In this document: positions 193 to 31,159 of the stretch, one piece after another
How positions within the stretch are numbered: the first letter of the stretch is position 1
Layout: each line of letters starts with the position of its first letter
Assembly (NCBI GenBank): GCA_003138975.1
Contig: PLHQ01000090.1
Coordinates: 1-56,695, forward strand
Source: Acidobacteriaceae bacterium
GTDB lineage: Bacteria; Acidobacteriota; Terriglobia; Terriglobales; Acidobacteriaceae
DNA: 56,695 nt
Direction: 5' to 3'
Notes under the pieces: model-generated
What the model was told of the DNA's origin: nothing
Seen by the model: the letters and a program-made list of their open reading frames with translations, nothing else
The model's database searches: none
Made by a program: the position numbers and the translations under genes

Positions 193-669
193 TTTTTTGA
201 ATGGTTTCCAGCTTGACACAGTTTTCAGGTCAGAGCGCTGCACTGTGAAAAGACAGCGGGGTTTTGTTAGACCGAAGTCCGGCAGTTGGCTCGGTCACTA
301 GGCACGATGTAAACGTAACCAGCGTCGTCGTTAAATGCCAGCGGCCAGGTTCTGGGTTGTTAGCAAACCGGCACGGTTAACTTAAAATCCGCAGGTCCGA
401 AAGGCATTTGGGAACTCGGTTCCCGCTTCCGGCACCGATTAACCCATTCAGAGGACATCAGTTAAGTTGTCGTGATCAAATGCTCGACAAAAGCAATTGC
501 TTTGATGAAGAATACACGTTGAAAACAAGGCCGTGCCTGCATCCGCGACAAAAGTCTTCGGATCTGGTTAACATTCTCCAACACCTCGTCTAGAATGGGT
601 CACTTAGTAGTGGCCAGGATTTTCTTCCCTATCAAATTCATTTTGCAGGACTTAGTGTGGGGAGCTAAT
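193..669. other. Intergenic region between tRNA fragment and trehalase
   Basis: About 480 bases with no convincing gene. A 61-codon open frame (408-593) has no ribosome binding site or recognisable sequence. The region contains a 14-base perfect palindrome (490-503) and a loose inverted repeat GACCGA/TCGGTC near 270-297. The trehalase promoter presumably lies here, but no clear -35/-10 pair was found. Confidence 0.5.
490..503. promoter_or_regulatory. 14-base perfect palindrome, possible operator
   Basis: AAAGCAATTGCTTT reads identically on both strands and lies about 166 bases upstream of the trehalase start. Its symmetry would suit a dimeric repressor. No second copy was noticed and no regulator gene is adjacent, so the role is inference. 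Confidence 0.25.
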
Positions 670-2433
670 ATGAAGAGCCGCATTTCCAGGCGAATGAAAC
701 CCAACTTTTTCAGGATTTTTCGTCGCAGGTTGAGCCTTACCCTTGGTTTTTGTTGGATCCTATCGTTGCCGGCGCGCTGCGGCCCAAATGCCGCTGGAAA
801 GTTCAATGCCGGGCAAGGGGAAGGCCTAAAGCCGATTCTTGAATACATTTCCTCGGCGTGGGATACGCTGACGCGCTCTATGAGCGATTGCCAGAGCCTG
901 GTCGATCCTAAGATCAAAGCCGATCCGGTCCTGTACTTGCCGGCGGGCTTTAGTGAACCAGATACGTTGAAGAAGCTGGCCAGTGAGTGCGATGTGAGCG
1001 TGGAGCATCTGCCCATCGAGATTCATCGTCTCGGCGAAATCGACACCTCCAAAATACAGCCACCCGGACTGCTCTATCTGGAGAACAAGTATGTAGTGCC
1101 AGGGGGACGCTTCAACGAAATGTATGGGTGGGACAGCTACTTCATCGTCCGTGGACTGCTTCGCTCCGGCCGCATCGAGTTGGCTCGTGGCATGGTCGAC
1201 AACTTCTTTTTCGAAATTGAGAACTATGGGGCCATGCTCAATGCCAACCGGACCTATTATCTGACTCGTTCACAGCCACCTTTTCTGAGTTCGATGTTTG
1301 TCGAGGTGTACGATGCGGTTGCAAAATCGGGGCACGCGGATCCTGTTTGGTTGACGAAAGCCTATGCCGACCTGGAAAAGGATTACGAAATGTGGAACCG
1401 CGACCCTCACGTTGCGGGTGACACCGGGTTGTCGCGCTACTACGATTTTGGGGAGGGCCCGCCCCCTGAGGCGGTGCAGGATGAAACTGGCTTCTACCGC
1501 AAGGTCGCGACCTATTTTTTCTTTCATCCTGTTCAGGCGGATGGGTACATTCTCGAAAGCTTGCCTGGCGTTATGCAGTCAGCCGCGGGCTCCCCTTACA
1601 CGCTGGAGATCTGCGATGTTTCGCATACGATGGCCCGTGCGGGCTGCGACGAGCGGCACCAATTCAAACTGAGCTCCGACTATTACAAGGGCGACCGCTC
1701 GATGCGGGAATCCGGATTCGATGTAAGTTTTCGCTTTGGGCCATTCGGCGCTGCCACCCATCACTACGCGCCGGTATGCCTCAACAGTTTGCTCTACAAA
1801 ACCGAGAAAGATATGGAGCAGATCAGCCGGTGGTTGGGACGCGGGGCCGATGCCAATAAGTGGAGCAAGCGCGCCGAGAAACGCAAGCAACTCATCACGC
1901 GCTACCTGTGGGATGACAAGGCGGGATTCTTTTTCGATTACAACCTCACTACGGGTCAACGATCCTCTTATCGCTACGCGACAACCTTTTATCCACTGTG
2001 GGCGGGGCTCGCCACGCCAGGACAGGCATGGGCCGTCGAGAAGAATCTGTTGACTCTCGAGAAGCCTGGCGGATTGTCCATGAGCACCGAAGACACAGGA
2101 GCGCAATGGGATTTGCCGTACGGCTGGGGAAACATGGAAATGCTGGCGGTTGAGGGCCTGCGCCATTATGGCTACAACGCGGATGCGGACAGAGTATCGT
2201 TTGAATTTCTGTCGATGGTTGCGGAGAACTTCCGCCGCGACGGCTACATCGTCGAGAAATACAACGTGGTGACGCGCTCATCTGAGGCCCATGTGGAACT
2301 GGGTTACAAGATGAATGTTGTAGGTTTTGGATGGACCAATGCGGCATTTCTCGAGCTGATGCACGGATTGCCCAAGGAGATGGCAGAGCGATTGGCAGCA
2401 GAGCAAAATCGGCCCTTGGAACCGAGTCCATAG
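670..2433 (+). CDS. Secreted trehalase, glycoside hydrolase family 37
   Basis: Hydrolyses alpha,alpha-trehalose to two glucose molecules, probably in the periplasm. The chosen ATG (670) has GGAG five bases upstream (661-664); the frame is open for 25 further codons upstream but without a better site. The protein is 587 residues with a basic N-terminus and hydrophobic stretch (about 20-36) acting as signal or anchor. Trehalase signature 1 is at 144-157 (PGGRFNEMYGWDSY), ESGFD at 347-351 supplies the expected acid Asp351, and signature 2 is at 479-490 (QWDLPYGWGNME). The conserved GFGWTN is at 552-557. The glycine-rich GGGGEY that normally precedes GFGWTN is replaced by a TRSSEAHVELGY-like segment, so the second catalytic acid is uncertain. 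It is convergent with the following TPR gene, 11 bases apart. Confidence 0.9.
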   Translation: MKSRISRRMKPNFFRIFRRRLSLTLGFCWILSLPARCGPNAAGKFNAGQGEGLKPILEYISSAWDTLTRSMSDCQSLVDPKIKADPVLYLPAGFSEPDTLKKLASECDVSVEHLPIEIHRLGEIDTSKIQPPGLLYLENKYVVPGGRFNEMYGWDSYFIVRGLLRSGRIELARGMVDNFFFEIENYGAMLNANRTYYLTRSQPPFLSSMFVEVYDAVAKSGHADPVWLTKAYADLEKDYEMWNRDPHVAGDTGLSRYYDFGEGPPPEAVQDETGFYRKVATYFFFHPVQADGYILESLPGVMQSAAGSPYTLEICDVSHTMARAGCDERHQFKLSSDYYKGDRSMRESGFDVSFRFGPFGAATHHYAPVCLNSLLYKTEKDMEQISRWLGRGADANKWSKRAEKRKQLITRYLWDDKAGFFFDYNLTTGQRSSYRYATTFYPLWAGLATPGQAWAVEKNLLTLEKPGGLSMSTEDTGAQWDLPYGWGNMEMLAVEGLRHYGYNADADRVSFEFLSMVAENFRRDGYIVEKYNVVTRSSEAHVELGYKMNVVGFGWTNAAFLELMHGLPKEMAERLAAEQNRPLEPSP

Positions 2434-2444
2434 TGACCGGAGAT

Positions 2445-3506
2445 TTATGGGTGAGACGCTTGCTGGGTCTGCAATTGCTCGGCGAGCTTCAATTCGCTAT
2501 CGGCCTCTTCTTTTTTCCCCATATCGCGATAAGCCTGTCCCAGCAAGTGGTGAGTCGTGGGATTGTTCGGGTCCATAATTGCGGCGCGCTGTAAAGAGCG
2601 TACAGCCAGTTCAAATTCGCCCTTCTTTTCCAGTACCTTTCCCATAAGGATGTAGGGGCCGGTGGAGGTGGCATCGAGCCAGATGGAGCGTTGCAGAAGG
2701 CGCTCGGCATCTTCAAACTCTTGGATACGGGAATAGGCGTCGGCCAATTTGTAATAGGTTTGAGCGTGGCCGGGATTGATAGCCAGTTCTTTCTGAAATT
2801 CCGCAATCGCTTCGGGGACGCGCGATTTGTACAGATACAATTCGCCGAGCAGGAAGTGAACGAGAGGAAGTCTTGGATCGAGAGCCACCGCTTTCTGGGC
2901 ATATTCTTCTGCCACGGGATCGAACTCCTGACGCAGCAGCATTCGCGCGGTGAACATGTAGCTGGCGGCAGAATCAGGCGAAACGTCGAACATTTTTGCG
3001 AAAGCCACACGTGCGCGCGGATAATCTTTGGTCTGGATGTAGCAGATGCCCAGTATATACGCGGCATCCACATTCGCCCGCGAATACCAGCCTTGCATTT
3101 TCTCCAGGAGCGGAATCGCCTCCGCCGGATGTCCGCCCAGATAATAAGAGAGACCCAGCAACTGCATGGCCTCACCGTTGCGCGGATCCGCAGCCGAGGC
3201 TTTCTTTAAATGCTCGATCGCTTTAGGGAAGTCACTTTTCTTGTAGTAGGCCGTGCCCAGTTCCAAGTCGAGGCCGTTCGCCTCCGGATTGCTGGCTTGC
3301 AGCGATTGCAAATCAGCAATAGCGTCGTCGAATTTCCCCTCCTGCATCAACTTGCGCGCCGGCGCTAGTTCAGCAGCGGACGGGAGCGACGCGGAGGCCT
3401 GAGCGGCTGGGGCGTCCGGCGTTGATTGCTGGGCGAATCCGGTCGCGGAGAAAGTCCAAAGATAGATCGAGAACCATATCGTCCGAACTATCGAAATACG
3501 CGGCAT
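2445..3506 (-). CDS. Secreted tetratricopeptide repeat protein
   Basis: A 353-residue protein with an N-terminal signal peptide (hydrophobic stretch about 8-25, ending GFAQQ), a short Ala/Pro/Ser linker and then TPR units from about residue 46 to the C-terminus. Repeats are recognisable by the recurring A..LL....Y........A......A...DP pattern. TPR proteins are scaffolds; no catalytic motif is visible. It is the last gene of the minus-strand run 7842-2445, 73 bases after the copper/cytochrome protein, which itself ends in TPRs. It probably serves assembly or partner binding for that periplasmic group, but this is inferred from position only. Confidence 0.8.
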   Translation of the reverse strand: MPRISIVRTIWFSIYLWTFSATGFAQQSTPDAPAAQASASLPSAAELAPARKLMQEGKFDDAIADLQSLQASNPEANGLDLELGTAYYKKSDFPKAIEHLKKASAADPRNGEAMQLLGLSYYLGGHPAEAIPLLEKMQGWYSRANVDAAYILGICYIQTKDYPRARVAFAKMFDVSPDSAASYMFTARMLLRQEFDPVAEEYAQKAVALDPRLPLVHFLLGELYLYKSRVPEAIAEFQKELAINPGHAQTYYKLADAYSRIQEFEDAERLLQRSIWLDATSTGPYILMGKVLEKKGEFELAVRSLQRAAIMDPNNPTTHHLLGQAYRDMGKKEEADSELKLAEQLQTQQASHP

Positions 3507-3579
3507 CGTTTGTTTCCTGAAACAATCAAGGCAAATTTTCTCAGCAAGGCGGCCAATCGCCCGAATTCCCGGCTGAGAG

Positions 3580-5439
3580 CTACCTTTGGTTCATCGTGCG
3601 TTGCAGTTCTGACAAATTTTCTCTCGCCAGTGCGTTATCAGGATCAATCTGCAAGGCGCGCTCGAAGTGCGATTTTGCCTCAGAGAACTTTCCCATCTCC
3701 GCCAAAGCGCTCCCCAAGTTTGCTTCTGCATTGGCGTCGGCGGGGCGCGCCCGCAGAGCCAGAAGAAACTGCTTCGACGCACCCTCAAAATCGTTCTGTG
3801 ATGCCAGCGCGTTGCCCAGATTGTAGTGCGCATCGAAATAGTCGGGGCGCGCTTTCAACGCCGTTTCCAGGTAAAATGCTGCCTGATCAGGACTGCTTGC
3901 CGCTAGCAGCGCCGCGCCCATCGCATTGTTGGCAACCGCGTCGTCGGGACGAAGGCGTAGAGCAGCTTCATATTCCTCCATGGCGCGGTCCAATCGTCCC
4001 TTGGCCTGAAGCATGGCTGCGAGATTGTAATGCGCCTCGAAGTCCGCGGGATTCTTTGCCACATTGTGCAGGGCAAGCGCTTCCTGCAGGAGCATTCGTG
4101 GATCGCCTTGAGCGGGATCAGAATTTACCGGAAGTACCTGCAGCCATAGATGGCACATCTCGTCGCTGGACCTGTTACCACTCTTTACCCGGGCGGGCGG
4201 ATGGTTTGGATTCAGGGGATTCTCCTCCGAGTTGTCATACACGTACCGGAGACTCACGGTGGTGCCCTTAGGCAGCATCACGGGTTCGGCATAGCGGTAA
4301 ACGGCCTGCCAGTTCAGGTTCCAGCGCGGGATATGAATCAGCGTCTTTTTCGTACCATCCGGCAGTGTGACCAAGGCCTGAATATCTTTCCCAAGGTAGT
4401 GCGCATGTGGATAGATGGCCAGAAGATCAACGTCGATCGGAAGGATGAAATCATCGGTTACCAAGAAATTTCTTTGGCCAGCAGGGATCTGGAGTTTTGC
4501 ATCATTTTCAAGCTGCAGCAGCATCGGCAGCTTCGTCGCGGGATGGGAAGCAAAGTAAAGTCCAATGCTCGGCTGAATTACTTCGGTCTTCCCCGACGGC
4601 TGCAGGTGTGTGTTGAGAATTAGGTCGGTGCCTTTATCCAGCCGAAGTTCCATTCCTTCCGGCTCGACGTAGGGAACCGTTCCCGGCTTCCAGAAAAGCA
4701 AGTGACTGTCAGGGTCGAATACCTGCGATTCCAGCCGGATTTCCATCCCGCCAAATCCAGCCCCGGGCGCGGCTTCTCGACGTCGCGACTCCTCCTCGCG
4801 GTCCACCAGAATATTGGCATGGTGCACGTAGCGTTTGTCACCCGGCCGAATTTCGACCGCCTTGACCCAACGCGTTTTCTCGATGGGCAGTCGGAAGATG
4901 AAATTCCAGTAGGTGTCTGTGCCCTCTGGCGGAAGGATCAACGGCTTCTGTGCTTTCAGAATCAGATCAGGCATTCCCAGCCGCCAGCCCTCAGTGAACT
5001 TCGGTTGTGGCGGCCGGTCTGCGGGATTGCCCTCCGCCGCGCCCTGATCCAGCCACTTCTGGATGAGGTCAATCTGCGAATCTGACAGCCGCATCTCGTC
5101 TGCAAACTTCAACTCCTGCGGCGCAGGCAGCCATGGAGGCATATTCCGCGTGCGCGTAACCTCCGCGATCTGCCGGGCATGTTTTTTTACATCCGCGTAA
5201 GTCAGAAGCGAGAACGGCGCCGCCTCGCCGGGACGATGGCACGAGGCACAGGAATCAAAGATGATGGGTGCAATGTCGCGATTGAAAGTGACGTTCGGTG
5301 CGCCTGCGCTCGCTTGCTCCGCCCGCTGCGGAGCCCTTCCCGGGAACGCCGTTCCTGGGGAGGACGCACCCAGGGTCGTCGCCAAGATCCATGCGGTCCA
5401 TTCTATGCGCGCATTCACTCCAGGTCCGAAATGTAGCAT
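3580..5439 (-). CDS. Cytochrome c + copper type II monooxygenase-like + TPR protein
   Basis: Three modules in 619 residues. An export signal (about 11-33) precedes a cytochrome c domain with heme site CASCH (64-68) and likely axial Met100 (RNMPPW). Residues about 170-437 resemble the peptidylglycine/dopamine monooxygenase fold: His206-His207 (VHHAN) and His278 (NTHLQ) match the CuH ligands, and His345/His347 (PHAHYLGK) plus Met428 (SSDEMC) match the CuM ligands, so all six are present. TPR units fill about 450-619. The ATG at 5439 has AGGGGAG upstream and overlaps the redoxin gene by 25 bases; a GTG at 5418 would give a GTGA overlap. Known relatives hydroxylate carbon centres using copper and an electron donor; here the fused heme could be the donor (inference). 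The substrate is unknown. Confidence 0.8.
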   Translation of the reverse strand: MLHFGPGVNARIEWTAWILATTLGASSPGTAFPGRAPQRAEQASAGAPNVTFNRDIAPIIFDSCASCHRPGEAAPFSLLTYADVKKHARQIAEVTRTRNMPPWLPAPQELKFADEMRLSDSQIDLIQKWLDQGAAEGNPADRPPQPKFTEGWRLGMPDLILKAQKPLILPPEGTDTYWNFIFRLPIEKTRWVKAVEIRPGDKRYVHHANILVDREEESRRREAAPGAGFGGMEIRLESQVFDPDSHLLFWKPGTVPYVEPEGMELRLDKGTDLILNTHLQPSGKTEVIQPSIGLYFASHPATKLPMLLQLENDAKLQIPAGQRNFLVTDDFILPIDVDLLAIYPHAHYLGKDIQALVTLPDGTKKTLIHIPRWNLNWQAVYRYAEPVMLPKGTTVSLRYVYDNSEENPLNPNHPPARVKSGNRSSDEMCHLWLQVLPVNSDPAQGDPRMLLQEALALHNVAKNPADFEAHYNLAAMLQAKGRLDRAMEEYEAALRLRPDDAVANNAMGAALLAASSPDQAAFYLETALKARPDYFDAHYNLGNALASQNDFEGASKQFLLALRARPADANAEANLGSALAEMGKFSEAKSHFERALQIDPDNALARENLSELQRTMNQR

Positions 5440-6002
5440 CCCACTCCCCTGACGGCGTTCTCGGCCACTGGTTTGCCGGCCATCGCCGCCTGGATCGCGT
5501 CGCTCAACTCGTGCTTGGTGGGAGCAGGACGCGGACTGCCAAACTCCACATACCAGTTATCGATGCGCCCGTGATAAACCAGCTTCCGTTCACGGTTGAA
5601 CACCGCCGCCTCCGGCGTAATCTCCACGTGAGCCTTCTTCACTAACACATGCTCCGGATCGCGCAGGGCAGGCAGAACGTATCCATAATCTGCCAGATAT
5701 TTGCGGATTGTCTGCGGAGACTCACTCTTGTCGGGATACACCAGAAAAAAGCTGGTGTCATGCTGGTAGCGCGCGCTGATCTGCTGAATCACCGGAGCGT
5801 AGCGGCTGGAGACCGGACAGTCCTGTCGAAGGAATACCAGCACCACAATCCTGCCTGAGGCTTGGTCAAGAGGGTTCACGGCCTTGCCATTGAGATCGAA
5901 AGCCGCTTGTTGCGCTTGGATCGTGAGCGCCGGAAAGAGGCAAGCGAGGAATATACTGACTACCAAACTGCTTACCCACAGTACCAATCGACCTTTCCCC
6001 AT
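5415..6002 (-). CDS. Exported redoxin / thioredoxin-fold protein
   Basis: A 195-residue protein from the ATG at 6002; the open frame extends 41 codons upstream, but this start places a clean signal peptide (MGKGRLVLWVSSLVVSIFLA) at the N-terminus. An AhpC/TSA-like redoxin core follows, with the strand VLVFLRQDCPVSSRYAP. Only one cysteine (DCPVS) occupies the active-site region, so it resembles a peroxiredoxin-like or one-Cys redoxin rather than a CxxC thioredoxin. The end of the gene overlaps the start of the cytochrome/copper gene, implying translational coupling. In many related bacteria redoxin, cytochrome c and copper monooxygenase-like domains are found in one polypeptide (from memory); here they are split over two genes. 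Confidence 0.8.
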   Translation of the reverse strand: MGKGRLVLWVSSLVVSIFLACLFPALTIQAQQAAFDLNGKAVNPLDQASGRIVVLVFLRQDCPVSSRYAPVIQQISARYQHDTSFFLVYPDKSESPQTIRKYLADYGYVLPALRDPEHVLVKKAHVEITPEAAVFNRERKLVYHGRIDNWYVEFGSPRPAPTKHELSDAIQAAMAGKPVAENAVRGVGCYISDLE

Positions 6003-6114
6003 GCTTTTCTCTGCCGACCTAACTGAAATTCTAGAAGCGCTCGCCGCCAGTGTCCATCGGATTAAAGCAATTTCTTTGGTCCGCGGCGGTATAGCCATTT
6101 CTGGAGCACACGTT

Positions 6115-7842
6115 TCACAATCCACATTTCGTCGGGATTTGGTTGAGATACTTCAACATCTGATTTGCCGTAGCCAGATCGGGATTAAACTCGAGCACGC
6201 GAAGCGTTGAAGTGCGAGCCTCGGCGACTTTTCCTTCATTGCAGTAAGCGCGCGCCAGGTTTAGACCGATACTACTCCGCGCCGGTGCGTGCTCGAACGC
6301 CTTCTGCCAAAGAGCGATCGCATTTCCTGGGTTCCCGGCTCTCGCTTCGATCACGGCGAGATTGGTAGCCGCATCCACCAGGTCCGGGTCGATCGCCAAC
6401 GCTTTTTGATAGAGCGCGCGGGCATTTTCGGTTGCGCTGTGCTTCTGTTCGATGTAACCCAGGGCCGAAAGCAGCGCAGGGTCTTCGGGGGACTGCTTCA
6501 AGGCTTTCGAAAGCAGACTTCGCGCTTGAGGTTCAGCTACGGTCATCCCGCTCTCGACCAACGATTCCCAGGCCAGCGCAAGGTCGCGTAGGTCGGATTC
6601 CGGTTTGCTGGTAGCGGGGAACGGGACCAAGCGCGGCAAGGAAGATTCTCTCGCAGCGTCCTGCAGCAGCCGTGGCTCGAGCTGTGGCCGCCGCAGAATG
6701 CGGTGATCGGTCACCTCAGTGTGCGCCACGTCGCTGCTGGCGGAGGCCGGCATGTGGCATGTAAGGCAATCCGGCTGATCCGCATGGTGTTTGGCCGCGA
6801 ACGGTGAGCCGTGGCAGGCCAGGCACTTGCCTCGGTAATAGGCAACGCGCTCTGCGGAAGTCGGCGATTGGTGCGGGTTATGACAGCTAGTGCAAGACAT
6901 CGCATCACCCGATTTTTTCTTGCACCGGCTTTGCTCTAACGCTTCCACCTGACTGACGGCCCCCAGACTGGATGCTTGAGAATCGAGCAGCACGAAATAT
7001 CGGACGTAGTCGGAAAGCTCGTCCCCTGGTCGGAACTCGTAAGCGTGCCGGCCCTTTCGCTCAATAGCGACCTTTCCCTCCAGGTGGCACTGCATACAAA
7101 CCTCGTCGCGTCGAGCAGGGGAAAGTTTGGCTGGATTAATAATCTCTCCGCCATTGGCATGCGCGGCTCCCGGTCCGTGACAGCGTTCACACGACACCCC
7201 GTTGTGTAGGAAAGGCGGGTTGGGATAACGGTTGTCCGTATCCTTCGCAGGAGGCCGCATTCCGCTTACATGGCAGTGCAGACAGCTCGTGAAAGCAGGA
7301 AGATTCAGCGGGATCTCTCGCGCGCTCTGGTAGGCGGGGGCCATATCCCACAGTTGCTTGTTCGCATACCAGTTCACCGGAGACTCGAAGAGGAATCCAT
7401 CGGTCTCAAACAGGTAGCTTCGGCCACGACGTCCCGAGCCGATGTAGTAAAGAAGTTCGCGTTTTCCTCGGACGTCAGGATCTCCCGGCCGATCGAAGCT
7501 GAGCCAGGCGTGTCCGCTCTCGCTGTAGATGCGGTAGTGGACGCCGGACTCCTTGTGCGTGAACTCCGCAGGCGTGAGAGCAGCGATGGCAGGGCCACTG
7601 GCGCGGGCCATAGCGGTGCGCTGGTAGGACTCGTAAATTCCGAAATGGCACGAAGCGCAAGCTTCGTTGCCGAGATAGCCGTTTCGGTCGACAGTTTTGG
7701 AAGGCGTCGGTAGAGCTTGAGTCGTAATTGGATTCTGTGCCATTGAACCCGACCCGAACACCCCTACCAGGAATAGAAATCCCGCCGCTAGCGCGCACTT
7801 ATCCAACCGTCCCGAAGAGATCACCCGTCGCCTGCCTGCCAA
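6115..7842 (-). CDS. Heptaheme cytochrome c with C-terminal TPRs
   Basis: A 575-residue exported protein (hydrophobic signal about 15-35). Seven CxxCH heme sites are at 62-66, 187-191, 218-222, 249-253, 317-321, 340-344 and 359-363, including the GVSCERCHGPG and MSCTSCHNPH segments typical of the cytochrome c554-like multiheme family. From about residue 410 there are TPR units. It would act in the periplasm as an electron conduit. It is the first gene of a four-gene minus-strand run; the redoxin gene starts 112 bases after its stop. A strong terminator lies just upstream, between it and the TonB receptor, so it needs its own promoter in the short gap 7843-7868 or depends on read-through. The electron partner is not known. 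Confidence 0.88.
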   Translation of the reverse strand: MAGRRRVISSGRLDKCALAAGFLFLVGVFGSGSMAQNPITTQALPTPSKTVDRNGYLGNEACASCHFGIYESYQRTAMARASGPAIAALTPAEFTHKESGVHYRIYSESGHAWLSFDRPGDPDVRGKRELLYYIGSGRRGRSYLFETDGFLFESPVNWYANKQLWDMAPAYQSAREIPLNLPAFTSCLHCHVSGMRPPAKDTDNRYPNPPFLHNGVSCERCHGPGAAHANGGEIINPAKLSPARRDEVCMQCHLEGKVAIERKGRHAYEFRPGDELSDYVRYFVLLDSQASSLGAVSQVEALEQSRCKKKSGDAMSCTSCHNPHQSPTSAERVAYYRGKCLACHGSPFAAKHHADQPDCLTCHMPASASSDVAHTEVTDHRILRRPQLEPRLLQDAARESSLPRLVPFPATSKPESDLRDLALAWESLVESGMTVAEPQARSLLSKALKQSPEDPALLSALGYIEQKHSATENARALYQKALAIDPDLVDAATNLAVIEARAGNPGNAIALWQKAFEHAPARSSIGLNLARAYCNEGKVAEARTSTLRVLEFNPDLATANQMLKYLNQIPTKCGL

Positions 7843-7868
7843 TTGCGATCCTTGATTGTACCGACAGA

Positions 7869-7892
7869 AAAGGGAGCCCCGAAGGACTCCCC
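7869..7892 (-). terminator. Rho-independent terminator with UUCG loop
   Basis: On the minus strand the RNA folds as GGGAGUCC-UUCG-GGGCUCCC followed by UUUUCU: an eight-pair stem with one G-U wobble and a stable tetraloop. It begins 26 bases after the stop codon of the TonB receptor. On the plus strand one pair becomes a C-A mismatch and there is no T-run, so it works for the minus strand. Confidence 0.85.
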
Positions 7893-7917
7893 TCTGAGGA
7901 AACGGCTCACTGCCTGG

Positions 7918-11779: not shown

Positions 11780-13042
11780 ATGGCTTTAACCCACAGCTAC
11801 GACGCTGGACGAGAGCAATGCTTCCAACAAGTAGATAAACTTACTAATAGTCATAGCCTGCGCGGCTCTGAATCTCTCTGCAAGTTGCTCCGGTATCTCG
11901 CGGAACGCTCTCTCGATCATCCCGGCGTGGCGCTCAAGGAGTACCAGATCGCCGTTGAAGTGCTGGGTCGGTCTGGCGGCTTCGATCCCCAAAGCGACTC
12001 GGCAGTGCGGGTGCAGGCAGGACGCCTGCGCGTGAAACTGGAGGAGTATTACGCGCACGAGGGGCCGGACGATTCCGTTGTGGTCGAATTGCCCAAGGGA
12101 TCCTATGCCCTCACGTTTCACGTGCGCACCCCATCCTCCAGCTTGAGGGAGCCCCCTTGGAGGATTGGGAAAGGTGATCGGAGGAACGCCACGCGTCCTT
12201 GGATCCCGCGTCCATCGAACCGGGGATGGGTGATCGCGGTTGTAGTGCTCTCGGTCTTGCTGGCGTGCGCCTTGCTACTGGCGGGTCGTGGGCAGGTTCG
12301 AACTCGTGCGAAAGAACCCGTTCCGGCCGTATACCGGTTGTTCTGGAACCGCTTCGTCAACGGCTCACAGCAACCGTGGGTGATCTTTAGCAATGGAAGC
12401 TTTGTGGGTAGGCCGGAGACCGGCATGCGGTATTTCAACCCGTCGGCTGATTCGGGATCACTCATCCTGGATCATTACACTGGTGTTGGCGAAGTGCTGG
12501 CGGTCCATCAACTAGATCGTGTTTTCGTTCTCCTCAATCAGCAGCTCAGGGTGAAACGTGGCAGTCTGGTCTCTTTAGACGACGCCAAGAACAACGATCT
12601 CATTTTCGTCGGTTCCCCGGCCGAGAATCTTACCCTCTTGGATATCCCTGGGACTCAGGAGTTCGTTTTTCAGCGTGTCGACTCCGGTCCCCGCAAGGGT
12701 GACTTAGGAGTTCTCAACACCCACCCACAGCCCGGCGAACCACAGATCTTTCTGGGAAGTCCCGCCAGCCGGCCGACAACCGAGGACTACGCGGTGATTG
12801 CAATAGTTCCGGGCATAGATCCTGCGCGGTCTGTCCTGATTCTTGCCGGAACCACCACCTTCGGCACGCAGGCGGCGGCGGAATACGTATGCCGGCAGGA
12901 TTCGCTGGCAGAGTTATTGCGGCGCTTGGGAGTCTCCAAGGCGGCGGACCTGAAGCCGTTTGAGGCGCTGTTGCGAGTAAAGGTGACGCACGGAGTTCCC
13001 GTGATGACTGATCTGGTGGCCGTACGCGAGCGGCGCGACTAA
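11780..13042 (+). CDS. Membrane-anchored one-component transcriptional regulator
   Basis: A 420-residue protein. Residues about 30-115 form a DNA-binding-like domain recurrent in soil bacteria and at the N-terminus of some adenylate cyclases (LKEYQIAVEVLGR..FDPQSDSAVRVQAGRLR..L..YY......VVELPKGSY). A single membrane segment lies at about 149-168, followed by a periplasmic domain of about 250 residues with no family I can name. The topology is that of CadC/ToxR: cytoplasmic DNA binding and periplasmic sensing. It is transcribed divergently from the TonB receptor and convergent with the following TPR gene (48 bases apart), so control of the receptor is the likely role (inference). Confidence 0.7.
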   Translation: MALTHSYDAGREQCFQQVDKLTNSHSLRGSESLCKLLRYLAERSLDHPGVALKEYQIAVEVLGRSGGFDPQSDSAVRVQAGRLRVKLEEYYAHEGPDDSVVVELPKGSYALTFHVRTPSSSLREPPWRIGKGDRRNATRPWIPRPSNRGWVIAVVVLSVLLACALLLAGRGQVRTRAKEPVPAVYRLFWNRFVNGSQQPWVIFSNGSFVGRPETGMRYFNPSADSGSLILDHYTGVGEVLAVHQLDRVFVLLNQQLRVKRGSLVSLDDAKNNDLIFVGSPAENLTLLDIPGTQEFVFQRVDSGPRKGDLGVLNTHPQPGEPQIFLGSPASRPTTEDYAVIAIVPGIDPARSVLILAGTTTFGTQAAAEYVCRQDSLAELLRRLGVSKAADLKPFEALLRVKVTHGVPVMTDLVAVRERRD

Positions 13043-13090: not shown

Positions 13091-14860
13091 TTAGGGAGCA
13101 GACGATACGGGTGGAGTGAGATGAGGATCCAGCTCGGCGGCTTTCCGATATTCCCCTTCTGCCTCTTCCTTTAAGCCTTTTTGACTAAGGGCCAAGCCGA
13201 GCTCGTAATGCGCAACTGCGTAGGAGGGCATGACGCGAATCGCGGTGCGGAACTGGGAAATCGCGCCATCGAGGTCGCCGGCGTTCAGCAGTCGCCGTCC
13301 GGAGTTGGTGGCGAAGGTGGCGGCCTGCAGATCGGTTTTTGCCTGGGTCATTTCGGCGCCGGCTTTGCTTTCGACCGCGGCCCCGGCCGTATCGCCCAGT
13401 TGTCGCAGAACACCAGCCAGAGTGATGTGAGCGCCCGCAAAATCCGGATCGAGCCGAATCGCCTGGCGCAGCGCCTCGGCCGCCTCAGGCAGCTTATTCA
13501 TCTGTTTCAGGACGGTGCCGAGCGTGTAGTAGGCCTCGGCGTAGGTCGGCTGAATCTGAATCGCCTCCCGTAATTGTTCCGCCGCACCGGGAAAATCTCC
13601 CGATTGCCACAGGGTGACTCCCAGGCTGTAGTGCGCGTCCGCCAACTGGGGGTCGAACCGGATTGCTTCCTTCCATTCGGCGATGGCGCCGGGCAAGTCA
13701 TCTTTGAGCTTGAGCGCCAAGGCCAGGTCGTGATGCAGGCTGGCTCTTGCCGGTTCGAGCTTGAGGGCGACGCGGAACTGCGCCGCAGCGGCGTCGAAAT
13801 CCGTCTTCTGCAAATAGGCCGTTCCCAGATTGCCTTGGAATCCGGCGTCGTCGGGCCGAAGCTTAATGGCTTCTTGAAATTCCTTGATGGCAGCATCGGC
13901 TTCCCCGCGTTGCACCAGGGACAAAGCTAAATTGTTGTGAGCCTCTGGGTCCGATGGTGTGAGTTCCACGACCTTGGTGAACGCAGCTATGGCGCGGTCG
14001 GGATCGCCGCGCCGCTGGAGCAGAAGACCGAAGCTGGTTTGCAAGGGTGCGAAATCCGGCTTCAGCTTGACCGCTTGTTCGAAGGACCGCAGAGCTTCCT
14101 CAGGATTAGCCTCTGCCTCGAGTATCCTGCCCCGGTAATACCAAGCCCACGCGTCTTTAGGATCGAGCTTGACTGCATGGTCCAGTTCTATTTGCGCTTT
14201 TTGTTGCTCGCCTTCGCTGGAAAGCGTGACGCCGAGATGAAAATAAGCCGGCTGGTAATCAGGATTTATCTTTACCGCGCCTCGAAATTCCTTTTCTGCC
14301 TCTTCGAATCGCGACTGCTGAGCCAACAGGGAGCCGAGTTCGTCGTGCAACTCAGCCTGCTGCGGCGCCAGGCGCGTTGCCTCCTTGAACTCTGCGATCG
14401 CATCGTCCGTCTTTTGTTGCAAACTGAGTGCGCGCCCGAGTGCTTGACGCGCCTGCCATTGTTGCGGTGCTAGATCAACCGCCGAGCGGTACTGGCTAAT
14501 TGCCTCGTCCAGCAGTCCCTTGGCTTGCAGAGCCTGGGCGAGGTAGGCGTGAGCAATAGCCAGTTTCGGACGCAGCCGCACGAGCGTCCGGAAATGGATG
14601 ATCGCAGCATCGAGTTCCCCTTGCTCGAGCAAAACCTGACCGAGCATGTTCTGAGCGTCAGCACTCTGCGGATTGAGTCGTACTGCCTTTTCAAAGGCGG
14701 TCCGTGCCGCTGACAAGTCTCCCTTCTGCATCGCGATACGGCCGGTCTGAAACGTCGTGGAACTGCCGCTGTTCGCAGGGGTCTGCGCTGGTGCCGCTGT
14801 CGCCATCGGGCAGATAAGGGCGATGGCGATAAAACCGAAAGAAAATCGAGAAAGATGCAT
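13091..14860 (-). CDS. Secreted TPR-array protein
   Basis: A 589-residue protein with a signal peptide (about 1-25, ending APAQT) and an almost continuous array of about fifteen TPR units to the C-terminus, with the strongly repeated pattern A..HY.LG..L...G....A...F..A..L.P. No catalytic domain is visible. The last residues are Pro-rich. It follows the CRTAC1 gene on the same strand with a 43-base gap, so the two are probably co-transcribed. Long TPR solenoids in the periplasm usually organise complexes; the partner is unknown. Confidence 0.85.
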   Translation of the reverse strand: MHLSRFSFGFIAIALICPMATAAPAQTPANSGSSTTFQTGRIAMQKGDLSAARTAFEKAVRLNPQSADAQNMLGQVLLEQGELDAAIIHFRTLVRLRPKLAIAHAYLAQALQAKGLLDEAISQYRSAVDLAPQQWQARQALGRALSLQQKTDDAIAEFKEATRLAPQQAELHDELGSLLAQQSRFEEAEKEFRGAVKINPDYQPAYFHLGVTLSSEGEQQKAQIELDHAVKLDPKDAWAWYYRGRILEAEANPEEALRSFEQAVKLKPDFAPLQTSFGLLLQRRGDPDRAIAAFTKVVELTPSDPEAHNNLALSLVQRGEADAAIKEFQEAIKLRPDDAGFQGNLGTAYLQKTDFDAAAAQFRVALKLEPARASLHHDLALALKLKDDLPGAIAEWKEAIRFDPQLADAHYSLGVTLWQSGDFPGAAEQLREAIQIQPTYAEAYYTLGTVLKQMNKLPEAAEALRQAIRLDPDFAGAHITLAGVLRQLGDTAGAAVESKAGAEMTQAKTDLQAATFATNSGRRLLNAGDLDGAISQFRTAIRVMPSYAVAHYELGLALSQKGLKEEAEGEYRKAAELDPHLTPPVSSAP

Positions 14861-14903: not shown

Positions 14904-16733
14904 CTATGGTTTTGACTTTGAATTCTTCGGGAACTGCATCGTCCGGCTAATTCCTTCGCCTTCCTTCACGAAGATTAACTGGTTCGCCTTCACATCCTTC
15001 AACGTATCCACGAGGCCGCTGGGCCAGCGGATTTCGAGAAGGTCGGCTTTCTCGGCCCTGCCCAAGCCAAAATGAATGCGGAAGTCGTTCTGCGAGAGAT
15101 AGCTCCCACCGCTGCGCACTTCGTCAATCTGTTGATGAGCTTTCGCTTCGCCTGCAGGACGCGTGATGCAAATCAGCCGCGCTCCAATGCCGCTACGATT
15201 CGACTTAGTCCCGATGGTGCGAATCTTGATCCAGTTATTATCCAGCTTGGAATCGCAACGCAAGAGCTGCGGATAGTCGTTGACCGTATTAACGACCGCG
15301 TCGATGTCGCCATCGTTATCGAAGTCACCGAAAGCGCAACCTCGACACGGCGCGGGGTCGGAAATACCCGGTCCAGCCTGCAACGAAACATCGGCGAAAT
15401 GTCCATTATGCAAGTTGCGGTAGAGCAACTTGCGCTGCGGATAACCTGCCTCGGTTTTTAGTTGCTCGACTTCGGGATAGACGTGGCCGTTGCAGATCAG
15501 AATATCGGGCCAGCCGTCGTTGTCAAAGTCGAAGAAGCCGCAACCCCAGCCCAGAAATTGCGTGTGCGCCCCTAAGCCGGCAGTGAACGTGGCGTCTTCG
15601 AAGTTGCCACCACCCTGGTTGTGGTAAAGAGAAGGCGTGTCGCCGGCGAAGTTGGTCTTGAGCAGATCGAGGTTGCCATCGAGATCGTAGTCGGCCGCGG
15701 AAACGCCCATGCCGGCTTGCGGCTTACCGTCTGGGCTCAAGGCACAGCCTGCTTCGATGGCGATGTCTTCGAAGGTCCCGTTCTTTTTATTGTGATAGAG
15801 CGCGCTCGCGGTCGAATCGTTGGCCACGTAGACATCAGGCCAGCCGTCATTATCAAAATCGGCGGTGAGCACGCCCAAGCCGTAGGTGCCGCTGGCGCGA
15901 AAAATTCCCGCAGCTTCGGAAACGTCGGTAAAGGTGCCGTCGCCGTTGTTGTGGTAAAGGATGTTTTTTCCACCCTGCAAACCAGGCGGTCCGCATGCGA
16001 CCAGCACTCCTTTGTAAAGACACGGCCCTGACTCTGGCACGGGCGCAGTGGCCAGGTCCATGTCAATGTAGTTGGCAACGAAGAGGTCGAGGCGTCCGTC
16101 GCGATCATAATCGACAAACGAGCAGCCGGTGTTCCAGCGCGTGCCTTTGCCCGCTACGCCCGCCTTCTGGCTCACGTCGATAAAGGTCCCATCTCCGTTG
16201 TTGTGATACAGAACATTCTTCCCGTAGTACGTTACGAAAAGATCGTCCCAGCCATCGTTGTCGTAGTCTCCGACGCAAACCCCTTGTCCCCAACCGGAGT
16301 GGGCGAGCCCAGCCTTGGCAGTTACGTCGGTAAAAGTGCCGTCCCGATTGTTGCGAAAAAGATGCGAGACGGGTTCGCTGCCGGCCGGAAATCCTTCCAG
16401 CCGCCAACCATTCACCAGGAAAATATCGAGCCAGCCGTCGTTGTCGTAGTCATAAAACGCGACGCCGCAACCGGTGGTCTCGAGCAGATATTTGTTCCTG
16501 TGCTCGCCGCCGAAAAGCGTCTTCACGTTGAGACCCGATTCGCGGGCGACATTCAGAAAACTGACGCCCAGCTCGCTGTCTCCGAGAGAATCTTTATTGG
16601 CACCGTTCTTCTCGTCGGATGTGGTTCCGGCTGGCAGCCAGCTGGGACGCACGAGCCCTAAGATGCTTTCAAGCGACAGGACCAGGCCCGATCGGCTGAG
16701 AGATTTCAGAAATACACGGCGTGAAGAAGACAA
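14904..16733 (-). CDS. CRTAC1-family protein (VCBS/FG-GAP repeats + ASPIC/UnbV), Tat-exported
   Basis: A 609-residue protein. The N-terminus carries a canonical Tat signal SRRVFLK (4-10) and then a hydrophobic stretch. Residues about 60-480 contain repeated calcium-binding-type FG-GAP/VCBS blades (D.DNDGW.D) forming a predicted seven-bladed propeller. The C-terminal region about 500-595 is an ASPIC/UnbV domain (SGIGAR..., GSYLSQND, IHFGLG, IRWPSG). Such proteins are common in Acidobacteriota and Planctomycetota, with mostly unknown roles, often next to TPR proteins as here. Export through Tat implies folding, possibly metal loading, in the cytoplasm. Its start is only 60 bases from the divergent GTG of the glycosidase gene. 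Confidence 0.9.
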   Translation of the reverse strand: MSSSRRVFLKSLSRSGLVLSLESILGLVRPSWLPAGTTSDEKNGANKDSLGDSELGVSFLNVARESGLNVKTLFGGEHRNKYLLETTGCGVAFYDYDNDGWLDIFLVNGWRLEGFPAGSEPVSHLFRNNRDGTFTDVTAKAGLAHSGWGQGVCVGDYDNDGWDDLFVTYYGKNVLYHNNGDGTFIDVSQKAGVAGKGTRWNTGCSFVDYDRDGRLDLFVANYIDMDLATAPVPESGPCLYKGVLVACGPPGLQGGKNILYHNNGDGTFTDVSEAAGIFRASGTYGLGVLTADFDNDGWPDVYVANDSTASALYHNKKNGTFEDIAIEAGCALSPDGKPQAGMGVSAADYDLDGNLDLLKTNFAGDTPSLYHNQGGGNFEDATFTAGLGAHTQFLGWGCGFFDFDNDGWPDILICNGHVYPEVEQLKTEAGYPQRKLLYRNLHNGHFADVSLQAGPGISDPAPCRGCAFGDFDNDGDIDAVVNTVNDYPQLLRCDSKLDNNWIKIRTIGTKSNRSGIGARLICITRPAGEAKAHQQIDEVRSGGSYLSQNDFRIHFGLGRAEKADLLEIRWPSGLVDTLKDVKANQLIFVKEGEGISRTMQFPKNSKSKP

Positions 16734-16793: not shown

Positions 16794-19439
16794 GTGAACT
16801 CTTACTTTGCAAGCTCCGGAAGACCGCAGGGCCAGACTGGCAGCGCACAGCCCTCACGTCAAACTGCATTGCGAATTCCTTCAGACCGCCTTACTGATCG
16901 TCTTAAAGTCCGAGCTTTTCTTTTGATTGCGTGGACAGTCCTGCTGGTTCAGTTCGCGAGCGCGCAAGCGCCCGAAGTAGAGCTGTCGCGACCCGTTCGC
17001 ACCTGGGAGTTTCTGCCCGTGGTCGGCATGGGCGCCGGCTTGTTCGGCAATGAATCGGGACGTCTCGAAGCATGGGTTTATCCGTTGAAATTGCTTCGAG
17101 ATTTTCATCTGACTTTTCATGTATCGAACCGTGCTCTCTTCGCAGAAAACCTTGCCCGAACGCTGACCGTCACTCCATCGTCCGCGACATTGGTCTATAG
17201 CGGGGATTCATTTCGCGTCCGCGAGACGCTGTTTGTTCCCGTGCACGAGGCGGGGGCGGTGATTCTCTTCGATGTTGAAACCTCACAGCCTCTGGAAATC
17301 GAAGCGGGGTTTGTGGGTGATTTTGCACTGGAATGGCCAGCCGGGCTCGGCGGAACATACCAAGAGTGGGACGCGGGCCGTCATGCGATCGTATTCGGCG
17401 AAGAAACGAAAAAGTTTGCGGCATTGGTGGGCTCTCCTACGGCCAACCAGCCCCACGTTGCATACGAGACCAACTATTCGTCCTCCAATGAAACCTCTTT
17501 TCGTTTGGGCGCCACGCAAAAGGGCCAGGGAACAAAGGTGCTGGTGATTGCGGCTTCCGTTGCGGGCCTCGACGAAGCGCAGCAAACCTATGATCATCTG
17601 GCAGCATCGTATCCTGATTTGCTTCGCGATTCGGCCGAGTATTACAAGAGCTACCTTGCGCGCACCGTGAGTCTCGATCTTCCCGATGCGGCCTTGCAGC
17701 AGGCCTACGATTGGTCGCGCATCAGTATGATCCAAGGCCTCGTGACTAACCCCTATCTGGGCACGGGGCTGGTTGCGGGGTACCGAACCTCGGGCCGGAG
17801 CCAGCGTCCAGGATTCGCTTGGTTCTTCGGCCGCGACTCGCTGTGGACCTCGTTCGCTCTCAACGCAGCAGGAGACTTCGCAACCACTCGCACGGTAATC
17901 GAGTTCATCAGCAAGTATCAGCGCGAGGATGGCAAGATTCCACATGAGATTGCGCAAGGCGCCAGTTTTGTTTCCTGGTTCAAAGAGTTTCCCTATCCCT
18001 ATGCCTCGGCAGACGCGACGCCACTGTTCATCATTGCGACGAATGACTATGTGACGCAGAGCGGTGATGTCGCATTTGCCCGCGAAACCTGGGACCGCGT
18101 TTGGAAGGCTTATCAGTTTCTGCGATCCACCTACGATGAACAGGGATTTCCACGAAACGCCGCCGTGGGACACGGCTGGGTGGAAGGCGGTCCCCTGCTT
18201 CCAGTAATGACAGAGTACTACCAGAGCGCGCTTGGCACTGAGGCTCTGAGAGCGCTTTCTCATCTGGCAGGCTTAGTCGGAAAAGATGACATAAAGAAAG
18301 ACCTGGCAGAGGAATTTCACAGCAGGCAGTTGGCGCTCGATCAAGCTTTTTGGTCCCCGAAAAAGTACATTTACGCATTTGCGTTGGATAAGAACAACCA
18401 GCGAGTGGATGAACCGAGTGTACTAACTACGGTACCCATGTGGTTCGATTTGCCCGATGCGGCTCATGTGGAAGAAATGATCACACGGCTGGCCGACTCC
18501 GACCACGAGACGGACTGGGGAATGCGTATCATCTCCTCTCACTCGGCGCTGTACGATGCTTCCGGATATCACTACGGATCGGTGTGGCCACTGTTCACCG
18601 GGTGGGCATCGGTGGGCGAATACCGGTATCATCGCGCACTGCCTGCATATTCGAATCTTCGCGCGAATGCTCTGCTGACGATGGATGGATCGCTCGGGCA
18701 CGTCACTGAAGTTTTGTCGGGCGACTACTACCAGTCGCTTTCCACGAGCTCGCCCCATCAGATCTGGTCGGCGTCCATGGTCGTGAGTCCGATATTGCGA
18801 GGGCTATTCGGACTCCGAACGGACACAGTGAATCACAGGATTACGCTAGCCCCTCATGTGCCCGCGGACTGGACATCGTTTGCTATGCACAATGTTCATC
18901 TGGGCCCGGTGCGCGTTGATTTTCAGTATCGCAAGACTGCCGACAGCATTGCTCTTGATGTTACACGAACGGGCGTGGGGGATTGCTGGATCGAGTTCTC
19001 GCCCGCCTTCAGCCTGCGCGCGCGAATTGTCTCCGTGGAAATGAATGGCAAGCCGCTGCCATTCGAAGTACAGCCGAACGATGAGGATCAGCATGTATCA
19101 GTGCGGTTTCCCGTCTTTGGCGGTCCGAGTAACATGGTCATACGCATGAAAGATGACTTTGGACTAGCATTGGCAAATGAACTTCCTCCGCTAGGAAGCA
19201 CGAGTCGTGGCTTGCGCGTGATTTCGGAAAAGTGGAACTCAGCCCGCAATGTGTTGACTGTTGAAGTCTCGGGCTTGCCGGGCAGGGCGTACGAGCTTCG
19301 AGTTTGGAATCCGGCGCAGATCAGCTCGGTGGAAAACGCAGAACTTACCAAGCAAGCCACAATTCATATCGGGATGCCGAACGCGCCAGGAGAAGATTAC
19401 GTGCACCGTATTCTAGTCATCCGGTTTGGCAAGTCCTAG
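16794..19439 (+). CDS. Secreted glycogen-debranching-enzyme-like glycosidase (six-hairpin fold)
   Basis: An 881-residue protein. The start drawn is GTG at 16794 with no clear ribosome site; a TTG at 16869 would give a more usual signal peptide (hydrophobic LLIAWTVLLVQFASAQA). The mature protein has an N-terminal beta-sandwich region (about 60-290) and an alpha/alpha-barrel core with segments typical of amylo-alpha-1,6-glucosidase and GH63/GH15-like enzymes: WFFGRDSLWTSFAL, YQREDGKIPHE, and a late GYHYGSVWPLFTGW. It probably cleaves alpha-linked glucans or oligosaccharides outside the cytoplasm; the linkage cannot be fixed from sequence alone. The C-terminus is a beta-domain. The next gene starts 97 bases after its stop, so the two glucosidases are likely co-expressed. 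Confidence 0.8.
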   Translation: MNSYFASSGRPQGQTGSAQPSRQTALRIPSDRLTDRLKVRAFLLIAWTVLLVQFASAQAPEVELSRPVRTWEFLPVVGMGAGLFGNESGRLEAWVYPLKLLRDFHLTFHVSNRALFAENLARTLTVTPSSATLVYSGDSFRVRETLFVPVHEAGAVILFDVETSQPLEIEAGFVGDFALEWPAGLGGTYQEWDAGRHAIVFGEETKKFAALVGSPTANQPHVAYETNYSSSNETSFRLGATQKGQGTKVLVIAASVAGLDEAQQTYDHLAASYPDLLRDSAEYYKSYLARTVSLDLPDAALQQAYDWSRISMIQGLVTNPYLGTGLVAGYRTSGRSQRPGFAWFFGRDSLWTSFALNAAGDFATTRTVIEFISKYQREDGKIPHEIAQGASFVSWFKEFPYPYASADATPLFIIATNDYVTQSGDVAFARETWDRVWKAYQFLRSTYDEQGFPRNAAVGHGWVEGGPLLPVMTEYYQSALGTEALRALSHLAGLVGKDDIKKDLAEEFHSRQLALDQAFWSPKKYIYAFALDKNNQRVDEPSVLTTVPMWFDLPDAAHVEEMITRLADSDHETDWGMRIISSHSALYDASGYHYGSVWPLFTGWASVGEYRYHRALPAYSNLRANALLTMDGSLGHVTEVLSGDYYQSLSTSSPHQIWSASMVVSPILRGLFGLRTDTVNHRITLAPHVPADWTSFAMHNVHLGPVRVDFQYRKTADSIALDVTRTGVGDCWIEFSPAFSLRARIVSVEMNGKPLPFEVQPNDEDQHVSVRFPVFGGPSNMVIRMKDDFGLALANELPPLGSTSRGLRVISEKWNSARNVLTVEVSGLPGRAYELRVWNPAQISSVENAELTKQATIHIGMPNAPGEDYVHRILVIRFGKS

Positions 19440-19536
19440 AGATTTTGGGGATAGGAAGAAAAGACTCACTCTCGTCGAGCGGTCAATTTCCCCGCTTACG
19501 AGCTTGCGGCATCACTACGTTGGATGGAGCTCTAAT

Positions 19537-23935: not shown

Positions 23936-24006
23936 CGGGTTGCCTCTCACTTCATGAGGTGCCGCGTGGGTCGCTGAGCGCTTCCAGGAAGCGGGGTGTT
24001 TCTGTT

Positions 24007-27294: not shown

Positions 27295-27348
27295 AAAGTT
27301 TGTCCTGTTGCATTCGTGGTCGGGTCAGGCGTCCACGATCTACACTGT

Positions 27349-31152: not shown

Positions 31153-31159
31153 GTGCCTC

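Follow-up and report, generated by a model that had tools for sequence, protein, structure and literature searches.

The double jelly-roll fold of peptidylglycine alpha-hydroxylating monooxygenase (PHM) and dopamine beta-hydroxylase (DBH) is known from enzymes that make peptide hormones and noradrenaline in animals and draw their electrons from vitamin C; the PHM core contains several disulfides. LPMOs hold one copper in a histidine brace within a fold other than that of PHM. Six intramolecular disulfide bonds have been described for DBH (PMC4846438), and in the Cbp2D/CjX183 system of Cellvibrio japonicus a c-type cytochrome is described as reducing and activating a bacterial copper monooxygenase of the LPMO type (PMC8981238). 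Genes for planctomycete-specific cytochrome (PSCyt) proteins are reported to lie near sulfatases, and some carry carbohydrate-binding modules (PMC5615132); the words “monooxygenase” and “redoxin” are absent from the main text of that paper. Here, we analyze a stretch of DNA from an Acidobacteriaceae bacterium (contig PLHQ01000090.1), called the window below; it covers positions 1 to 56,695 of that contig, which is 79,892 bases long and belongs to a genome of 5.45 Mb. Four open reading frames (ORFs), A (7842-6115), B (6002-5415), C (5439-3580) and D (3506-2445), follow one another in the same direction on its minus strand. B encodes a redoxin and C a fusion of a cytochrome c with a PHM-like copper core, and judged from their sequences, these two form a core unit, a separate pair often placed in a cassette that contains A and D.

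C is predicted to be an exported protein of 619 residues, in which a cytochrome c (about 5298-5020) precedes a PHM-like dicopper core (about 4986-4120) and an array of tetratricopeptide repeats (TPRs; about 4068-3604, residues ~458-612). These parts were assigned from the ORF, Pfam, the fold match and the ligands. The protein has one CXXCH motif (64-68) and a conserved Met100. Its six copper ligands of the PHM type are complete: H206, H207, H278, H345, H347 and M428, which fall into an HH plus H set (CuH) and an HxH plus M set (CuM). C thus resembles PHM and DBH in its double jelly-roll dicopper core, its HH...H and HxH...M ligands and its export, but differs in having a fused cytochrome c and TPRs, a redoxin partner, few cysteines and other pocket residues. 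The core disulfides of the animal enzymes have no match in C, whose only cysteines are 64 and 67 (heme) and 429; just the two heme cysteines are present in the cytochrome-copper region of 81 of 131 distinct relatives.

The predicted structure settles the core of C as a double jelly roll of the PHM/DBH type. An AlphaFold model of the cytochrome-PHM part (pLDDT of 88.5) matches rat PHM (3mic) with a Z score of 21.3 and a root mean square deviation of 3.1 over 258 positions, and DBH (4zel) with a Z score of 19.3, while the next other family, PNGase, reaches a Z score of 7.7. PHM is also the top Foldseek match of the full-length model (E of 4.9e-11). In a PDB sequence search with the whole of C, the best 60 of 124 matches all fell in TPR regions, and the cytochrome-PHM domain was therefore searched separately. 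Its sequence profile reaches DBH at an E value of 0.0014, the sole match below 0.1. In this alignment, H206, H207, H278, H345 and H347 fall on DBH H262, H263, H333, H412 and H414 (chain numbers plus 39), and the copper Met, part of an EM motif, falls on DBH M487 by way of a fused relative; the DBH copper ligands are those named in PMC4846438. The first-pass annotation, made from the DNA sequence alone, had described C as a cytochrome c joined to a PHM-like domain with all six ligands, and the mapped ligands and the fold match bear this out. C is an unlikely LPMO because of its PHM fold and two-site ligand set, although the locus shares with the LPMO and its cytochrome donor a small c-type cytochrome, a copper oxygenase and a sugar-degradation setting. 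PSCyt proteins likewise fuse a cytochrome c to other domains, but C has no PSCyt Pfam match at an E value of 0.01.

To place C among its relatives, we drew on two collections. A survey of the order covered 249 genomes: a C-like match is present in 74 of them, and 45, counting that of the window, fall into the TPR class as defined by similarity and length, with the TPRs themselves scanned in the window's C and in L048. In a scan of 84,980 species genomes, at least 577 of at least 592 candidate stretches encode C relatives; the best 80 of the 577, hereafter the named loci, belong by record title to Acidobacteriota (41 of the 80), Verrucomicrobiota, Planctomycetota, Armatimonadota and others. Three of the named loci, L136, L141 and L146, have the same sequences as the order loci L061, L069 and L079. 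The top named match of C, among the matches listed, is an Acidobacteria metagenome-assembled genome of group gp2, with 72% identity in the cytochrome-PHM part.

The six copper ligands, together with C64, C67, H68 and M100, are invariant across 134 sequences, 131 of them distinct when the contig-end-cut L120, which stops before the Met position, is counted; the set leaves out L057, L058, L082, L083, L085 and L189 (too short). The named loci were chosen by patterns containing some of the ligands, so the invariance of H206, H207, H345 and H347 there is partly due to selection, while H278, M428 and M100 lay outside the patterns. In a first set of 59 sequences, three rows were incomplete, and a TPR-less paralogue, L085, was without four of the copper ligands. 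This paralogue (L085:8681-10066, G153:C6) keeps the heme motif, has RG in place of HH, R in place of H345 and A in place of M428, and by its sequence is a natural variant without copper sites. The Pfam Cu2_monoox_C model scores 23.4 bits on a paralogue, 29.4 and 29.3 bits on fused relatives and 21.8 bits on L087, and the N-terminal Cu2 monooxygenase model scores 24.9 on L190 against a cutoff of 30. Pfam gives no copper-domain match in L137, L149, L155 and L172, of which L137 and L155 are fused to a redoxin.

B is coupled to C in the loci of the order. Neighbor counts for 44 order loci were taken from a six-frame search; the ORF map misses B under antisense ORFs. B adjoins C on the same strand in 43 of the 44 loci and was not found in the remaining one, L047. 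Conversely, all 43 B matches with an E value of at most 1.2e-16, the window's included, adjoin a C gene, and among the weaker matches, only a fragment in G198 does so; the cut was placed at a gap at that E value, and the comparison was made by eye. The G198 locus (L082, G198:C155) carries a broken C copy with an in-frame stop, beside which B is only a fragment. The window genome itself encodes a second cytochrome-PHM protein (L057, G000:C12:145000-164500) without TPRs or redoxin, whose neighbors are a reaction-centre-type diheme cytochrome, a dienelactone hydrolase and an amidohydrolase.

The pairing extends beyond the order. Of the 80 named loci, 9 have B fused to C, and 35 have it as a neighbor no more than 1.5 kb away on the strand of C, to one side of C or the other; L124 has a nearby B on the opposite strand. 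A link between B and C is present in 27 of the 39 named loci not titled Acidobacteriota, including L143 and L146. These two are titled Rhodanobacteraceae and Verrucomicrobia, respectively, but their C sequences fall within those of the order in the tree, and the titles look wrong; L146 is identical to L079 in the cytochrome-PHM region. By parsimony on one FastTree tree, the fusion state changes six times, and the linked or unlinked state changes 15 times, against a mean of 40 when shuffled. The redoxin is fused at the N terminus except once, in L155 (L155:7737-10208), where it is fused C-terminally, behind the TPRs. In L193 and L178, Pfam places a redoxin and Cu2_monoox_C above cutoff in one chain. 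These fused proteins have the same three domains as the window's pair, but in the window, the redoxin is a separate gene, and a TPR array is present only in some fusions (L137, L155). The repeated fusion, together with adjacency on both sides, argues that the redoxin, the cytochrome and the copper core share a function. In searches of open-licence PMC papers, we found no function for the fused redoxin-cytochrome c-Cu2_monooxygenase proteins or for the window's pair, and no title or abstract opening among the matches listed deals with a redoxin-cytochrome c-PHM protein, in agreement with the first-pass annotation, which knew of no described function for the gene set.

B is predicted to be an exported thioredoxin-fold redoxin of the 2ywi type, as indicated by Pfam (AhpC-TSA), alignments and a PDB profile match. 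It had been taken for a one-Cys redoxin, a label that fails because two cysteines, C103 (DCPxS) and C230 (VGCxI), are present in all 43 aligned B proteins (residues are numbered from 6125; the alignment has 44 rows, from which the false match L088 was left out, and the broken copy L082 was not aligned). Both are also invariant in an alignment of 22 sequences, where they are numbered C34 and C161. The start of B is most likely the ATG at 6002, ahead of a signal-peptide-like stretch, rather than the GTG at 6125, and with this start, B does not overlap A; its end at 5415 does overlap C, which starts at 5439. B matches 2ywi at an E value of 7e-18, with profile positions 8-167 of 172 aligned and both cysteines matched, whereas ResA is more distant (E of 4e-7). 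B has the active-site CP and the C-terminal GC of the 2ywi-type redoxins, which we take to be PRX_like1. The TlpA/ResA thiol-disulfide oxidoreductases carry a CxxC active site, in place of which B has C103-P-V-S106, with S at 106 in 40 of the 44 rows. B is not a classical peroxiredoxin, since the Pro and Thr of the PxxxT/SxxC motif are not conserved at their positions (VLVFLRQDC in the window), nor is it a copper chaperone of the SCO type, whose CxxxC plus His has no conserved CxxxC counterpart at the active site.

We consider it slightly better than an even chance that B and C make up an exported type-2 dicopper hydroxylase that is run by its own cytochrome, has a redoxin partner and acts here on a sugar or glycoconjugate more likely than on a peptide. 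The pair would work as an oxygenase in the periplasm or on the side of the outer membrane. The respiratory chain or A would supply electrons to the His/Met heme of C, which in place of ascorbate would pass them singly to CuH and CuM, and O2 bound at CuM would then hydroxylate a C-H bond of a substrate held between the two jelly rolls. The heme fused to C suggests a reductant other than ascorbate, and C would thus copy PHM chemistry with another electron source. A cytochrome that serves a bacterial copper oxygenase as donor has a precedent in the LPMO system. The first-pass annotation had proposed such a replacement; the fusion is real and conserved and fits the idea, and the electron step itself we infer. 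B would be a two-cysteine thioredoxin-fold partner in making or protecting C, perhaps by keeping heme or copper-site thiols reduced, by loading copper or by removing peroxide. The TPRs on A, C and D, which had been recognized from the start on three of the four proteins, probably hold the partners together. A large bacterial branch with its own heme and a usual redoxin would mean an older or alternative way of powering this copper chemistry.

The substrate class is suggested by the neighborhood, in which the B-C pair appears set in a locus for the uptake and hydrolysis of alpha-glucosides, sugars resembling starch and trehalose, that also contains a TonB-type receptor. The four genes of the window are flanked by a GH37 trehalase (595-2433, plus strand; Trehalase E of 1.5e-105) and, beyond the receptor, by a second exported TPR protein of 589 residues (13091-14860, minus strand; Pfam), a CRTAC1-type FG-GAP/ASPIC-UnbV protein (14904-16733, minus strand; FG-GAP_3, UnbV_ASPIC), an MGH1-like or amylo-alpha-1,6-glucosidase-like, debranching-like glycosidase (16794-19439, plus strand; Pfam) and a GH13 alpha-amylase-family enzyme (19426-21240, plus strand; Alpha-amylase E of 1.5e-140). 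Within 20 kb of C, a GH13 gene is found in 15 of the 45 TPR-class genomes, against about 0.7 expected, a trehalase gene in 9 of the 45, against 0.25, and either of them in 20 of the 45, against about one. The GH13 expectation rests on 82 hand-counted copies (~80 at 380 bits and ~86 at 370 bits, giving 0.64 to 0.69), in which split matches count twice; the 370-bit level takes in a contig-edge fragment counted for G241. The distance between GH13 and the core match is 1 kb in three genomes and 7 to 18 kb in twelve, and the arrangement differs between genera, which indicates that the link survived rearrangement. For comparison, 15 loci of the TPR-less paralogue were fetched: B, A, D, the second TPR protein, the TonB receptor, CRTAC1, GH13 and trehalase are absent from the neighborhood of all 15, and one has a debranching-like gene close by. 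Sugar-uptake neighbors in many Acidobacteriota thus offer a testable substrate class for soil proteins that are common and functionally unnamed.

Several observations weigh against this reading. The Pfam Cu2_monoox_C model scores 22.5 bits on the window's C, half a bit short of its cutoff of 23. In 36 of the 80 named loci, some of which are cut by contig ends, no same-strand B was found at a distance of up to 1.5 kb from C, nor was B found in L047, and B is thus no strict requirement. Nor do all loci share the sugar context: neither GH13 nor trehalase lies within 20 kb of C in 25 of the 45 genomes, and in 18 of the 44 order loci, B and C stand without other reference genes in the stretch, five of these stretches being cut by contig ends. 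Because related genomes are not independent, the Poisson figures for the sugar genes overstate significance. Trehalase or GH13 is also near 4 of 20 A loci without C, and the sugar genes may thus follow the cassette rather than B-C. Finally, no sugar-binding site was identified in C, and its pocket residues are variable outside the TPR class.

Those pocket residues bear on the best placed alternative, a hydroxylase that tailors peptides, amines or a secondary metabolite and stands beside sugar genes only incidentally in some genomes, which we regard as unlikely. That the nearest solved folds are peptide and amine hydroxylases speaks for it, as do the 18 loci in which B and C lack the other reference genes and a clustering of the neighbors of 121 loci, in which C mostly has no partner except B. 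The pocket points the other way. We take Arg240, Asn316 and Tyr318 to be the residues of PHM that bind the peptide carboxylate; in the register given by the DBH alignments, their positions in C are occupied by Y343, H430 and W432. Y343, H430, W432 and Q434 are kept in 42, 41, 41 and 42, respectively, of 42 TPR-class proteins, differ in 13 TPR-less proteins and are found in 83, 70, 76 and 88 of 134 sequences in the wider set. Near fixation in the TPR class with differences elsewhere argues for a specific substrate there and against peptidylglycine. Because the peptidylglycine-binding residues are not conserved, C, judged on its sequence, is not PHM itself, and the altered pocket makes hydroxylation of peptides less likely. 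Glycosidases are enriched near C, and among 19 neighbor clusters of at least 5 loci each, not all of which were scanned, those scanned or recognized are not peptide biosynthetic. Neighbor clusters beyond B include a sulfatase at 7 loci (our own sequence reading) and an SDR at 11 loci (Pfam), both as raw counts; C, CRTAC1 and TPR proteins ended up in a joint cluster, whose counts were not used.

The hydroxylase with a sugar or glycoconjugate substrate remains our preferred reading. A fuller version, in which a dicopper oxygenase of the PHM/DBH fold, connected to respiration through its own cytochrome c, attacks alpha-glucosides or glycoconjugates outside the cytoplasm and is widespread in Acidobacteriota, Verrucomicrobiota and Planctomycetota, is distinctly unlikely; if it is true, C would fill an LPMO-like role by means of a different fold.

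A single machine made up of all four proteins, close to the module first proposed for them, is very unlikely. A (575 residues, TTG start) is predicted to be an exported heptaheme c554/c7-like cytochrome (Pfam Cytochrome_C554, TPR) with CXXCH motifs at 62, 187, 218, 249, 317, 340 and 359 and with C-terminal TPRs at ~439-555. The seven motifs uphold its original description; shuffled A sequences contain a mean of 0.02 such motifs and a maximum of 2 in 2,000. D is a predicted exported protein of 353 residues in which Pfam finds TPRs only. In favor of a machine, the full set occurs in the window, in the exact A-B-C-D order on one strand in one other genome (L043; L044 ends directly after C) and rearranged in L050, L052, L066, L067 and L068, and an A-family match is present in 39 of the 45 genomes that have C but in 72 of the 204 that lack it, figures that were hand-counted with paralogues included and relatedness uncorrected. 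Against it, A is near C in only 14 of the 44 order loci and D in 15, A, B and D are all found in the stretch fetched around C in 6 of the 44 (seven with G146, when the wider stretch L084 is taken), and six of the 45 C genomes have no A match at an E value of 1e-20. Loss of gene order in relatives, which the first-pass annotation named as grounds for refutation, is thus not seen for B and C but largely holds for the set of four. A second TPR protein (15), CRTAC1 (18), a TonB receptor (18), the 420-residue protein described below (5), trehalase (4) and GH13 (7) are also found near these 44 C genes within the stretches fetched. CRTAC1 genes average 10.6 per genome, and by chance, ~2 of the 44 loci would have one nearby, against the 18 observed, although the copies were counted at an E value of 1e-60 and the neighbors at 150 bits. 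Of 20 loci where A lies apart from C, 11 have D nearby, 11 a TonB receptor, 8 CRTAC1, 8 a second TPR protein and 3 trehalase, while 8 have none of these neighbors, and B and C are found at none of the 20. Because A loci that lack B and C can still carry D, the receptor, the second TPR protein and CRTAC1, we assign A and D, on gene content, to a shuffled cassette with these three partners, which is also found where C is missing, and the conserved four-gene unit is rejected. Least probable of all is a non-catalytic core that binds copper, senses O2 or NO or relays electrons within an exported complex of heme and TPR proteins. In its favor, the TPRs and the heptaheme partner suggest a redox scaffold, and L085 has lost four of six ligands with its heme motif kept; against it, both copper sites apart from this case keep all their ligands across phyla, as would be expected of an active dicopper hydroxylase.

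The four genes had also been described as one tight run, and they are indeed co-directional, but that description missed a TonB-type receptor gene 75 nt upstream of A in the same direction. The receptor (11598-7918, minus strand; 1,226 residues) is assigned to the outer membrane, with a carboxypeptidase-regulatory-like domain (OMP_b-brl_4 E of 1e-178, CarboxypepD_reg, TonB_dep_Rec_b-barrel). Export-signal-like hydrophobic N-terminal stretches are present on the receptor and on A, B, C and D, and are weakest in C. A strong, terminator-like UUCG hairpin (7855-7905, minus strand; minimum free energy of -23.3 kcal/mol, z of -3.6) followed by UUUU separates the receptor from A, and the receptor may thus be transcribed apart. 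This hairpin is absent from the list of a consensus promoter and terminator scan, which gave fewer matches than shuffles and was not used. Of the SusC/SusD pair that marks a Sus-type polysaccharide utilisation locus, no SusD family protein is among the matches listed for the 18 window ORFs scanned; the TonB receptor is present.

Divergent to the receptor lies a gene for a 420-residue protein (11780-13042, plus strand) with one transmembrane-like stretch (151-169, from hydrophobicity) and no Pfam match, possibly a membrane-bound regulator. The CRTAC1-type protein starts with SSSRRVFLKSL, which resembles a twin-arginine export signal. Past the sugar locus, the window encodes an RND efflux set with OEP, AcrB-type and HlyD-type members (22427-28623), and farther on, an AIR-synthase-type protein and HypD, which resemble hydrogenase maturation genes (30097-32257).

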